From the NCBI GenBank assembly GCA_948144175.1, contig CANXME010002160.1:2675501-2739500 (forward strand): a DNA stretch of 64,000 nucleotides, read 5' to 3'. Position 1 is the first letter of the stretch. The number at the start of each line of letters is the position of its first letter. The notes under the pieces are model-generated. The model saw only the letters and a program-made list of their open reading frames with translations. It was not told the origin of the DNA and did no database searches. Shown here piece after piece: positions 396-42,500 of this stretch. Origin of the DNA: Closterium sp. NIES-65. Its lineage: Eukaryota > Streptophyta > Zygnematophyceae > Desmidiales > Closteriaceae. The position numbers were made by a program, and so were the translations under genes.

Positions 396-3300
396 CTGAG
401 CCAAAGCGTGCCCAGCAGCACAACAAGCGCGAGCCCCAGCTTGCACCCCAGCTCCAGCGCCAGCCCCTTGCGCACGTTGCTGAGAGCAGCACGTGCCTCC
501 TCGAGCAGGAAGCGGATGGCACCGAAGGAGGGGTCAAGCAACACCACGGACGCTGCATCGCGCACCGCTGCCGGGCCCGGGCCTACAGCTATGCCCACGT
601 CCGCTGCTGCTAGCACTGATGCGTCTGTCAGGCCTGGGTGGGAAGGGGGTGGGAGAGAGAAAAGAGGGGTTTGGGGAGTGGTTCGGAATGAGGTTTGGGG
701 GTAGGAAAATGGTGCGTGAGTGGGAGGGAGGTACATGGAGTGGGTTTGATCTGCAACGTTCTCTTCTCCGCACGAAATGTTGGATGGGTTTTTGTGGGAT
801 CGAGCTAGGCGCGAGAGGATGATTTTGACTTGTTGGGTGGAGGAAGAATGTCAGAGAGCGACGGGCTGCATAGCATAACAGTGAGTGGAGAGCATTAACC
901 ACGGTGCAGTGCTCATGGGGTAGCAACCGATCACAGACCCACAACACAACTGCACGCACATGTGATCATCCCTGCCCCACACTTTACCTATCCTTACCTC
1001 TATTCATCCCCACAACCCCGGTTTTCCCTCACAACATCTCCTCTGCAGTCCCCCCTGCCCCTCGCAACTCCCCAGACCCTCACCACTACCCCCCTAATGT
1101 CCTCACTTGACCCGCACGCGGCCACGAGCTGTCCATTCATCTGCAGAGCTTCCAGAATGCAGAGCTTGTCTGTGGGAGATGCGCGCGCCACCACGCTAGT
1201 GCCCGCCACAAGAGCCCTGAGCTCCTCGCCCGTGCTCTGCGCTGGCGGGCGCTCCGTGCATGAGATGGCGTCCTGCTGCACCTCCTGCTGCTGCACCTGG
1301 GGGGAGGGAGAGGGGGAAAAGGGGAATGGGGGGGCCCCAAGAAGTGTGGGTTGAAAACGGATCCATGGAGAGGGGAGCGGGGAATGGGAAGGGGGAAGTG
1401 GGGAGGAGGGAGGGGGGAGGGTGTTTTTTTAGCTGCCTGAAGATTTGGTACGAGGTGACTTTTGAGTCGACTCAAAAGATATTGTACGCAGACGGCGCCA
1501 GGGACAGGAGGGGGGAGGAGTGCAGGTTCTAGGTGCCCCACACACACTGCAGCAGTGGCGGCGGTGGCAGCGGCAGCGGCAGAAGAAGCAGCAGCAGCAA
1601 CGAGTCTTGAGACGTTTGAAGCATCCCTTACCTGATGCGGATAGCAGATGGCAGCAGCTCTAGCCACAGCAACGGCCGTCCCCAGGTGATCCCCAGTCAC
1701 CAGCACAGGGCGCACCCCCGCAAGGCGGCAGCAGCGCGCGGCAGCAGCAGCGTCAACGCGCGTGGGGTCGGAAAGAGCAACGAGGCCCAGGAAGGTGCAG
1801 TCGGCGATGGAGGAGACGAGGGCGGTGCGGGAAGAGGAATGGCGGGGGCTGGAGTGATCCGCTGTGCTGCCAGACGCATAGCCCACTAGCGTGTAGCCTG
1901 GGGTTGTGGAGATGGGCGGGGAGGAAGGGGGAATGGGTGGGAGAGGGGGTGTTTAGAGGGGGTGGGTGTGCAGGGGGAGCGGGTGTGCAGGGGGAGCGGG
2001 TGTGCAGGGGGAGCGGGTGTGCAGGGGGAGCGGGTGTGCAGGGGGAGCGGGTGTGCAGGGGGAGCGGGTGTGCAGAGGGAGGAGACGAGGACCGTGCACG
2101 AAGATGTTTTTTGAGAATTCTCAAAAAACAGACCGTGCACGAAGAGTGATGCCGAGGACGAGAGCCACGGGCTGGAGTGATCAGCCGTGCTGCCAGACGC
2201 ATAGCCCACTAGCGTGTAGCCCGAGGTAGGGGAGGGAGGGGGGAAAGAGGGGGCGGGGGTGTGGGGGAGCGAGATGCAGTGGATGGCGGATAAGACGACT
2301 GCTGAGCGCTGAAGTCATTAGCTGTGCTGCCCGAAGCATAGCCCACTTGCGTGTAGCCAGGGGCGGGGGGAGGCAGGGGCGGGGGACAGGATTGGTGGAA
2401 GGAGGAGAAGGGGAAGGATGAATGTAAACCCAAGAATAAGCAATAATCCCATGCTGTGCGATGTGTTTCCCCATGCTGTTGTTCCTGCTTGTCAGTCATG
2501 CCTGGAGCAGCACCCACCAACCCACCCACCCCTACCTCATGGGCCACTCAGGCTGATCCATCCATCCATCCTCCATACCTTGGTCGGCGAGCTCCTGAAT
2601 GCGTTTGAGCAGCGCAGGGCGCAGGGAAGAGATGGACTCGGGCTCGCCATGGCACAGCACGCTGCCGCACTGCTCCACCAGCACCTCTGGCGGCCCCCTC
2701 ACGTACACCCTCTCACACACCTCGCCCTCCCCCCCACCGCCTCTTGCTGCTGCTGTTGTTCCTGCTGTGTCGCCTGCATCTGGCGCTGCACCGTTTTGTG
2801 CTGCTGCCCTGCGGCCGGGTAAACAGCGGGGAGACAGGAAAACGCGTGGCACTGGCAGGTTGAATTGGTAGATGGACCTGTGCGGGGAAAACTGGTGTGG
2901 GTTGGCTGGAAGGAGGAAGCGGGTTGGGTTACAAATATCGTCCAACTCAGACAGACAGGCATCTGCGACTTTTATTCGACTTTTATTCGACTTTTATTCG
3001 ACTTTTATTCGACTTTTATTCGACTTATATTCGACTTTTATTCGACTCTTTTGGGAAAGGACGAGAGGGACTGAAGCGTCTAACGACACGCCTCTCTCCG
3101 ACACCCAGTTTGTGCTGAACCTGATCTTTTAGAATTCTAAGAACACAGGTTCACCGATGGAGTGAAAGAGCCCCGGGAGAGGAGGCATCAGCAGTGAAGA
3201 GGTGCGGATAAAGCATGGTAGGTATAGGGGTAGGTAAGGGGGTGGGTAAGGGGGTGGGTAAGGGATAGGCAGGCAAGGCTCAGGTTCACACAGCGTACCG

Positions 3301-39500: not shown

Positions 39501-42500
39501 CTGAAACAGAGTCCGTGGGGAAGAAGTGGGAGGAGCTTTTGGAGGAAGAGGAGGAGGGAGGGGAGGAGGAGCGAGGAGGGGAGGAGAGGGAGGTAAGCAG
39601 GTGGCTTTGGTGTTGTTGATGCTGGTGGTGTTGATGGTGCTGGTGGTGGTGCTGGTGGTGATCGTCTTCTACTGTGAAGATCCCCGCAATGGATGTGATG
39701 AGGGGGAGAACAGCAGTCACGGCAAACACAAACCTGCCGGCAACAGAAGGGGCGTGCAGCAAAGCTATTGACGGAATGAGAGATGCGGGATACTGGACTC
39801 AACAACGTTGGATAAGATCCCATGCATATAGGAACCTCTGCTCACTCACACTGCTCTTGAGAATTCTCGAAATCCCCCATGCGCACATGAGAGACTGCTT
39901 GCACAGCAGCACCCCACTCACCCTTACACTCACCGCGTCCCATCCCATCCATCACCCCCTCACTCACCGCACCCTGCTCACCCCCACTGACTCACCTCGT
40001 GCCGTACATCTCCACCAGGCTACCGCTCCAATACGCGCTCACAATCCCTCCAACCGCACTGGACCCCCAGCAGAGCGACTGCAGCGACCCAGCCATGCTC
40101 TGGTCCTCGCCCCTGGCTCGCTCCACCACGAGCGAGTCCACCACCACATCAGACACGGCGACCGAGAGCGAGGAGAGCAGGATCATGGCGACGGTGGAGT
40201 ACTTGTCGTGGACTATTGTCGCGAGGAGGGCCCATGCAGAGGCACCCACGAAGCCGCAGAGAATGAGGTAGGAGCGGCGGCGGGAACCGAACAGGGGGAA
40301 GCCGTCACTGGTGGGTGTGAGGGACGGGTGAGGGGAGGGGCGGGGAGGGGAGGGGAGGGGAGAAGGGTGGGGGGGAGGGAAGGAAATGCCTGGAAAAGGG
40401 AGCGATTGGGAAGGAGATTGGTTCAAGAGAGCGAGGAGAGGAGGATTATTGCGGCGGTGGAGTACTTGTCGTGCACGAGCGTGGCCAGGAGGGCCCATGC
40501 AGAGGCGCCCACGAAGCCGCAGAGAATGAGGTAGGAGCGGCGGCGCGAGCCGAACAGGGGGGGGGGGGGGTCGCTAGGTGGGGGTTGGAAGGTGAGGGGG
40601 GAGGAGAAGCAATGAGTGGGAAAGAGGAAGTGATTGAGGATAAGAAAAAGGGAGCGACTGAGGAGAAGAGAAAGGGAGCGAATGAAGAGAAGAGAAAGGG
40701 AGTGTTTGCGAGAGGAGGATGAATGAAAGAGGAATGGTGGTCTGGACGCATGAGAAGGAGAGGGAGGAGAGAGATGGAAACCGTTTCGAGATCATGGATA
40801 CTGAGGGGCATCTAGAGGAGGAAGGGGGAGGAGAATGTGTGAGGTGGTGGTGGTGTGCGGGAAAAGACTTGCAACAGGGCAGAAAGGTGGCGGTTGGAAG
40901 GTGGTGGTTGGAAGGTGCAGTAACAATGGTGCAGATGGCATGGCGCAGATGGCATGGTGCAGGTGGCATGGCGCAGATGGCATGGTGCAGGTGGCATGGC
41001 GCAGATGGCATGGCGCAGGTGGCATGGCGCACGTGGCATGGCGCACGTGGCATGGCGCAGGTGGCATGGCGCACGTGGCATGGCGCAGGTGGCATGGCGC
41101 AGGTGGCATGGCGCAGGTGGCATGGAGCAGGTGGCATGGCGCAGGTGGCATGGCGCAGGTGGCATGGCGCAGGTGGCATGGCGCAGGTGGCATGGCGCAG
41201 GTGGCATGGCGCAGGTGGCATGGCGCAGATGGCAAGGCGCAGGTGGCATGGCGCAGGTGGCATGGCGCAGGTGGCATGGCGCAGGTGGCATGGCGCAGGT
41301 GGCATGGCGCAGGTGGCATGGCGCAGGTGGCATGGCGCAGGTGGCATGGCGCAGGTGGCATGGCGCAGGTGGCATGGCGCAGGGCCCGTGGCATGGCGCA
41401 GGGCCCGTGGCATGGCGCAGGGCCCGTGGCATGGCGCAGGGCCCGTGGCATGGCGCAGGGCCCGTGGCATGGCGCAGGGCCCGTGGCATGGCGCAGGGCC
41501 CGGGGCATGGCGCAGGGCCCGTGGCATGGCGCAGGGCCCGTGGCATGACCCACCTGAGGAAGCCGTAGAGAGGCTTGATGAGCCATGGCAGTGTTGAGAG
41601 CCCAGACAGAAGCGCCGTCTGCAGGGAAGGGGGGACGGATAAAAGGGGGAAAGGTGGAGACGGGTAAGATGGGGTGAGAGAGGGGGCGACGGAAGAGATG
41701 GGGAGAGAATTATTTATGAAATACTAGGAAAATGGGGAGCAAAAGATACGAGCAAGAGACACGAGGAGCAGCAGCAGCAGCAGCAGCAGCAGCAGCAGCA
41801 GCAGCAGCAGCAGCAGCAGCAGCAGCAGCAGCAGCAGCAGCAGCAGCAGCAGCAGCAGCAGCAGCAGCAGCAGCAGCAGCAGCAGCGGCGGCAGCAGCGG
41901 CAGCAGCAGAAGCAGAAGCAGAAGCAGCAGCAGCACACGCATACCTCAGCAGGGTCGAGCCCGAACTCATCCTTGAGAAAGAAGCTGACAGCCAGGCGGG
42001 CGAGCCCCAGAACGCCCTGCACAATATTTGAGACGACTCAAAAATCAGCAACAACTGCACATGCGCACCTCAGCAGGGTCGAGCCCAAACTCGTCCTTGA
42101 GAAAGAAGCTGACAGCCAGGCGGGCAAGCCCCAGCACGCCCTGCACAAAGTACACCAGCGCTATCGCCACTATGTCCGCTGTCAACGGCAGGCCCAGCCC
42201 CGGCATCATCCACTGCTGCTTCCTCCTCCCTCCACCACTCCTTCCCTCTCCCTCCACCCCTCCTCCTTCCCCTCCTCCTCCTCCTCCGCTGTTGCCGCTG
42301 AAGATGATGAAACTGCTGCTGCTGCCGCTGCTCCTGCCGCTGCCTCGGCTCCTGGTGCTGCCGCTGCTGCTGTTGCTGCTGCTGCATGCACTGCCGGTAG
42401 TGGTCCCATGGTTCGTCGTCCCACTGTTGATGCTCCCATCCAGGCTACTCTCTGCATGCCATCCCCACCACCCCCATCTCCCCAACCCCCTCCTCCATGC

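Follow-up and report, generated by a model that had tools for sequence, protein, structure and literature searches.

Mobile palindromes of about the size considered here are known from organelles and from bacteria. The bacterial REP/REPIN sequences are palindromes of 20-40 bases that occur in many copies and are mobilised in trans by RAYT transposases, and we know of no long target duplication that accompanies them. In plant-type repair of staggered breaks, a direct duplication is reportedly formed whose length equals the distance between the nicks and varies over tens of bases, and the junction is said to carry no constant palindromic insert. Here, we describe a palindrome family in the nuclear genome of the alga Closterium sp. 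NIES-65, analysed in a window of 64,000 nucleotides (assembly GCA_948144175.1, contig CANXME010002160.1, positions 2,675,501 to 2,739,500) and in the whole assembly. Like the REP/REPIN sequences it consists of many-copy palindromes, but those are bacterial. In contrast to the junctions reported for staggered-break repair, one palindrome family is found in Closterium at many junctions.

The nearest counterparts known are palindromic repeats of organelles. The palindromes of Volvox carteri are described as selfish, hairpin-capable repeats with an average length of 50 nt and a TTTA-type loop that reside in mitochondria and plastids, and their nuclear copies as inert transfers (PMC2670323). Both families consist of short palindromes able to form hairpins, and in each case a green alga carries a very large number of copies. 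The Closterium repeats differ in being nuclear, in having a self-complementary centre and in their long flanking duplications, and the words 'duplication' and 'flanking' are absent from the main text on the Volvox repeats (PMC2670323). The hairpin elements of sponge mitochondrial DNA and the double-hairpin elements of Allomyces are likewise described as mobile palindromes, intergenic and, unlike the Closterium family, mitochondrial; the Allomyces elements are reported to lack flanking duplications, and the GC clusters of yeast are believed to move like DNA transposons (PMC2800124). The palindromic A/T microsatellite elements of Fusarium mitochondrial DNA, optional elements with 14 and 16 copies, share with the Closterium family the short palindromes and neighbouring indels, but they are mitochondrial and built from homopolymer runs, and the main text describing them holds no word starting with 'duplicat' (PMC7218506). 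Searches of the open-licence literature for such an element and for neighbouring subjects returned no title or opening lines of an abstract that describe this family, nor a title on Closterium telomeres, and the word stem 'palindrom' does not occur in the main text of the paper on Closterium genome size (PMC10407611).

Size and anatomy of the palindrome family

The Closterium genome harbors a dispersed nuclear palindrome family with about 30,000 exact copies of its core. A search of the whole assembly (874 Mb, 2,400 contigs) with the pattern TTTTGAGNNNNCTCAAAA, proposed in a preliminary description of this DNA, returned 30,327 exact places, while the reversed pattern used as control returned 4. 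The confinement to two host genes that had been noted there does not hold, since the family is genome-wide. Within the window the core matches exactly at three places (1460, 2109 and 37251) and never in 100 shuffles; with up to two mismatches there are seven matches (additionally 7024, 38471, 39855 and 42026), compared with at most one per shuffle. Four of the ten window palindromes that score at least 8 belong to this family. A 264-kb block, which is the window plus 200 kb to its left with adjacency as the sole selection criterion, contains 23 exact core palindromes. It holds 43 palindromes scoring at least 9, some outside this family, versus 1 in shuffled sequence. These shuffle counts and the genome-wide difference rule out chance palindromes. 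A covariance model of the palindrome gave 66 matches in the 264 kb on both strands, many of which are the model's own source sequences. A viral origin of the core finds no support, as TTTTGAGTCGACTCAAAA had no match in IMG/VR.

The preliminary description had listed nine palindromes with a changing 4-bp centre. All nine positions were right to within 4 bp and seven match within two mismatches; those at 3125 and 6855 are weak and lie beyond this limit. The changing centre is borne out. At the genome places listed, the centres are nearly all TCGA, GCGC, ACGT or AATT, with the remainder one change off, and they are almost always self-complementary; genome-wide, the NATN class counts 2,762 copies. 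These centres bear on an explanation that involves no mobile element at all, in which the palindrome is the scar of a templated end-joining pathway. Both 3' ends of a staggered break would be extended on one short template by a telomerase-like or other reverse transcriptase, each end would gain ...TTTTGAGNN, and the identical tails would anneal via their self-complementary last four bases. Such annealing requires the kind of centre that is nearly always seen, and the flanking duplication would then be the product of filled overhangs.

The core is embedded in a longer palindrome with a full form of about 40-44 bp, one or both arms of which are often truncated. In one copy (L040), parsed by eye, the insert is 44 bp long and has a copy of a 37-bp stretch on either side. 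With the 1460 locus as BLAST query, dozens of other places matched exactly over 30-33 bp that run across the palindrome; at seven places, both strands gave hits that together indicate a palindrome of 37-43 bp. The consensus of 30 aligned copies, one per locus, is GGTGnnTTTTGAGTCGACTCAAAAGnnAnC; these copies were chosen for an intact or near-intact core, which accounts for the conservation of the core in the alignment. At the unselected columns the arms covary. We counted 56 cells changed on both sides, compared with 25.6 +/- 4.4 after shuffling and 14-18 when the partners were shifted by one or two columns; relatedness among copies can inflate the shuffle test but is retained in the slide control. 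In 25 of the 30 rows the first outer base forms a strictly complementary pair, with four pair types. Two of five covariation measures (pairs changed on both sides and further pair types) were no different from shuffles, with a tool that scores G-U as a pair.

The motif GTGAC points in the same direction. It precedes the core on 2,997 + 3,000 of the 60,654 arms in the genome, and at 13 of 39 independent places it is found on both arms, where 2.0 would be expected if the arms were independent (P = 5e-8). The 39 places come from the first 100 listed GTGAC rows, the omitted rows being further members of two arrays already counted. Thus, each copy behaves as the inverted double of one half-element. 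Three origins of this mirror-image variation suggest themselves, namely production of one half from the other, a single template for both halves, or selection for pairing; the last of these, rather than fold-back copying, could be the source of the covariation.

Several arm types exist in the family, for example TACGAGGTGAC and TGAGTCTGC, and the latter, found at the 37251 locus, recurs exactly on about 30 other contigs. In this respect the insert behaves like a sequence family with several arm types and, accordingly, like mobile or templated DNA. The idea that the outer arms are derived locally and mirror the flanks was dropped, as much of this sequence is arm sequence common to many loci. 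The palindromes at 3115-3152 of the window and at L031:8940-8973 extend into inverted arms that seem locus-specific (TGAACCTG/CAGGTTCA and CAGGGTA/TACCCTG, respectively). The joint variation of the arms and their side-specific truncation are also what variable priming would give in the templated pathway. However, the several arm types would need several templates, and no template RNA or enzyme was identified. We regard this pathway as rather unlikely and give preference to a mobile foldback element, since the arm types are found again at many loci; a clear-cut decision between the two is not possible from the data.

Direct duplications at the palindromes

An excess of flanking direct repeats, on which the preliminary description had made its claim depend, is present in the 264-kb sample. 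Under a strict rule (one core mismatch allowed, one count per cluster, duplication score of at least 12, edges within 12 bp) an abutting duplication was found at 12 of 19 palindrome clusters, compared with 24 of 1,500 random positions and 0 of 342 mismatched pairs of left and right flanks. The random positions were kept off short-period arrays, for which 12% of the block was masked, and the palindromes themselves were left unmasked. A looser rule without masking detected duplications at 18-19 of the 23 exact palindromes and at 23-29% of random positions, a high rate that is due to the richness of this region in tandem repeats. For duplications scoring at least 12 the figures are 19 of 23 and 29%.

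The duplications were parsed at 23 insertions, picked because they were parsable, 16 from the 264-kb block and 7 from contig C6. The contig C6 loci (L001-L015) are the first listed genome places and hence a non-random sample. The duplications measure 12-119 bp, and no length stands out as preferred (12, 15, 18, 26-30, 36-43, 52-64 and 74-119 bp); their edges are mostly no more than a few bases away from the palindrome. More diverged duplicate copies go with a more decayed palindrome (Spearman -0.49, P = 0.017, n = 23), as expected if both arose together. A converse scan of the block, seeded with short-spacer duplications rather than with palindromes, left 70 cases after a low-complexity filter; all six spacers with a palindrome score above 8 belong to this family.

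The sites in the window are the following, none of them assigned a strand:

1449-1478: palindrome, long on one arm, TACGAGGTGAC-TTTTGAGTCGACTCAAAA-G; flanks without a clear duplication, and the same 30 bp exact at many other genome places
2090-2104: 15-bp duplication GACCGTGCACGAAGA, left copy; 15 of 15 bp identical
2105-2130: perfect 26-bp palindrome TGTTTTTTGAGAATTCTCAAAAAACA; exact core match
2131-2145: 15-bp duplication GACCGTGCACGAAGA, right copy
3126-3144: degenerate palindrome CTTTTAGAATTCTAAGAAC; flanks inverted (TGAACCTG/CAGGTTCA), no direct repeat
4956-4972: possible, strongly decayed palindrome GTTTAGTCGACACAAGG in the spacer between the copies of a ~187-bp duplication; missed in the preliminary description
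6857-6875: half-degenerate palindrome; right arm mostly lost, no duplication found
6946-7009: duplication of about 64-67 bp, left copy; 89% identity between copies
7022-7043: palindrome ATTTTTGAGAATTCTCAGAAAT with arm defects; match within two mismatches
7042-7108: duplication of about 64-67 bp, right copy
37217-37245: 29-bp duplication, left copy; 27 of 29 identical, overlapping by eye a BT1-family-like exon end and 5' splice site
37246-37271: TC plus perfect 24-bp palindrome TGCTTTTGAGTCGACTCAAAAGCA, arm type TGAGTCTGC; exact core match
37272-37300: 29-bp duplication, right copy
38347-38465: duplication of about 119-123 bp, left copy; 87% identity between copies
38466-38488: palindrome GTGATTTTTGAGGCGCCTCAAGA with one core defect; match within two mismatches
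38489-38611: duplication of about 119-123 bp, right copy
39855-39872: degenerate palindrome, within two mismatches; no duplication found
41923-42024: 102-bp duplication, left copy; 92 of 102 identical, holding a copy of a BT1-like exon end
42025-42046: decayed palindrome TATTTGAGACGACTCAAAAATC; match within two mismatches
42047-42148: 102-bp duplication, right copy; overlapping the exon-like stretch 42069-42209

Direct copies at five or more of the nine sites had been proposed, and five are clear (2109, 7024, 37251, 38471 and 42026), although the 15-bp duplication at 2109 emerged only in a finer parse. Comparison of the window flanks gave no convincing abutting direct duplication at the other four (1460, 3125, 6855 and 39855). 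The copies of the ~187-bp duplication lie at 4732-4918 and 4992-5188 (169 of 184 identical), with edges about 20 and 37 bp from the candidate palindrome. At 37251 the last four bases of the duplication, TGAG, are also those with which the arm there starts, a possible 4-bp junction microhomology in this one case. The exon-like stretch 42069-42209 has a weak BT1 match (E 0.007) under the Pfam cut-off. On the minus strand, a GT...AG stretch of 52 bases that contains the palindrome (42017-42068, splice sites judged by eye) is bordered on either side by a copy of a BT1-like exon end. Its removal by splicing would yield an in-frame exon duplication, so that an intron gain is possible. Also by eye, two further duplications in the BT1 gene (37920-38065/38240-38390 and 40180-40340/40450-40570) show no palindrome at the junction.

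These features do not fit well into any standard transposon class, which agrees with the earlier view that no known transposon class accounts for them. DNA transposons and miniature inverted-repeat transposable elements have a fixed short target duplication and terminal inverted repeats around internal sequence; here the duplications vary from 12 to 119 bp, and in the copies examined, with no search made for separated half-elements, one arm follows the other across a 4-bp centre and there is no internal sequence. The family shares duplications of variable length with long and short interspersed nuclear elements and Penelope-like elements. Retroposition of these kinds also leaves one fixed 3' end, often with a tail, and truncation at the other end only; in the Closterium family one arm is long and the other short in many copies, though both ends vary. 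With the hairpin repeats of organelles it shares the dispersal of a short palindrome in many copies but not the residence, since the contig that holds the window is 5.4 Mb long and carries long terminal repeat (LTR) elements and nuclear-type genes. The variable direct duplication abutting the junction matches plant-type staggered-break repair; the constant palindrome family at the junctions studied does not. Tandem arrays that vary in copy number are minisatellites, but single sites of the form duplicate-palindrome-duplicate are not arrays, and the minisatellite label can describe only a secondary stage.

Arrays and genomic setting

Some copies are found in arrays of duplicate plus palindrome with periods of 37, 42, 53, 64, 67 and 99. 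Two recent paralogous regions, L037 on contig C1316 and L038 on contig C975, are 97-99% identical and carry three palindrome arrays whose copy number differs between them. This speaks against an artefact of sequencing, library preparation or assembly. A short palindrome at junctions of duplicated DNA does look linker-like, as an adaptor or chimera junction might, but the same arrays on two contigs, the varied decay, the several arm types and flanking copies diverged by up to about 23% in the 23 parsed cases are hard to reconcile with this origin. Since the copies are decayed, diverse and common to paralogs with different copy numbers, we reject an artefact as exceedingly improbable.

The window has 58% G+C, is eukaryotic and lies in contig C1862. 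One host gene encodes a P-type ATPase (E1-E2 ATPase domain, Pfam, 4e-12) and the other a BT1-family transporter matched in two segments (5e-31 and 5e-29), after which an aminotransferase class-III match follows. Copia- and gypsy-type frames take up much of the remaining window. Two copia elements are single open frames, at 30151-36105 (1,984 aa) and 50333-56326 (1,997 aa); long Gly/Ser-rich tracts occur in the latter. Residues 680-1060 of one copia polyprotein match Closterium proteins at 57-94% identity among the best 120 of 5,565 matches. The earlier observation that the palindromes are absent from the transposons is confirmed, as stretches of reverse-transcriptase elements occupy 28% of the 264-kb block and contain 0 of 22 palindrome loci (P = 0.0007, assuming independent loci). 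This may reflect the youth of those elements rather than a choice of target. A coding origin of the palindromes was considered and rejected: one open reading frame across an array had no homolog, and among ten open reading frames containing palindromes one had a sub-threshold Pfam match (a disordered repeat) and nine had none.

A proposed mode of spread and its implications

Starting from the observed family size, abutting variable duplications, joint arm variation, arm types and arrays, we favor as probable that the family is a non-autonomous mobile palindromic (foldback) element of 18-44 bp in the Closterium nuclear genome that entered staggered breaks and thereby gave rise to long target duplications differing in length. 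The genetic unit would be a half-element, for example TACGAGGTGACTTTTGAGTC, and the inserted copy would be this half joined to its own reverse complement, so that variable positions are mirrored on both arms. Two nicks on opposite strands, about 12-120 bp apart, would be followed by strand separation, and the two separated ends would be joined via the palindromic insert. Fill-in of the overhangs would leave direct copies of the stretch on each side, so that palindrome and duplication would arise in one event. A fold-back copying step would keep the arms alike, while the ends may be trimmed to differing degrees on the two sides. Later, the unit of duplicate plus palindrome could multiply as a minisatellite. 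The best reading therefore combines the two candidates of the preliminary description, a miniature mobile palindrome and a palindromic joint in filled-in staggered breaks. The dispersed family, its arm types and the long, variable, abutting duplications stand; the element is larger than the 18 bp first described, its arms vary together, it forms arrays, and four of the nine sites lack a clear duplication.

Several observations weigh against this foldback model. No empty site was found, and the sole full-length genome match to the 37251 locus is that locus itself. No encoding enzyme or longer relative was found, where a Y1 (HUH) transposase was not searched for. GTGAC is present on one arm only at 26 of the 39 places, and unequal arms are frequent. 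Under the strict rule 7 of the 19 clusters have no abutting duplication, although two of these (57844 and 207024) have duplications with edges further out, and the full-length copy L039, a 34-bp palindrome, shows no duplication in 140 bases. Of the 70 short-spacer duplications, 64 hold no strong palindrome; one of these spacers (160367) holds a decayed family copy by eye. In L037 the amplified units to the left and to the right of one palindrome differ from each other, and a single insertion with target duplication does not explain this.

The last of these findings, the seven clusters, the commonness of palindrome-free duplications in this DNA, and the arrays at many places whose copy number differs between paralogs all speak for an order in which the palindromes came first. 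Old dispersed palindromes without target duplications might act as cruciform or fork-stalling sites that provoke tandem duplication in their neighborhood. The basic form, however, is one palindrome between two copies, while duplication of a flank together with its palindrome would give two palindromes. The closeness of most edges to the palindrome and the parallel course of duplicate divergence and palindrome decay likewise argue against this order of events. As it explains the arrays and not the duplicate-palindrome-duplicate form, we rank it low and consider it quite improbable.

The foldback model can be taken one step further, although here we are more tentative and put the claim somewhat short of an even chance. 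The family might represent mobile nuclear DNA of a new class, a palindrome some 40 bp long whose half-unit is copied back on itself at each insertion, with wide staggered nicks that leave a 12-120 bp tandem duplication, and with very many jumps that have seeded minisatellites and duplicated exon edges in the genome of a member of the plant lineage. Three subjects that are usually separate, mobile DNA, tandem duplication by staggered-break repair and the birth of minisatellites, are joined here. If the model is true, each copy records the distance between two nicks, and the genome offers thousands of natural readouts of a break-repair pathway. Thanks to the mirrored arms, the general question of what keeps a palindrome perfect during its spread can be tested directly. 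The duplicated exon-end-like stretches with splice sites at 37251 and 42026 point to a possible route to new introns. The algal group of Closterium is described as sister to land plants (PMC11096116). For this group, nuclear palindromes with some 30,000 exact copies of their core and long duplications at their insertions would mean a new source of mutation.

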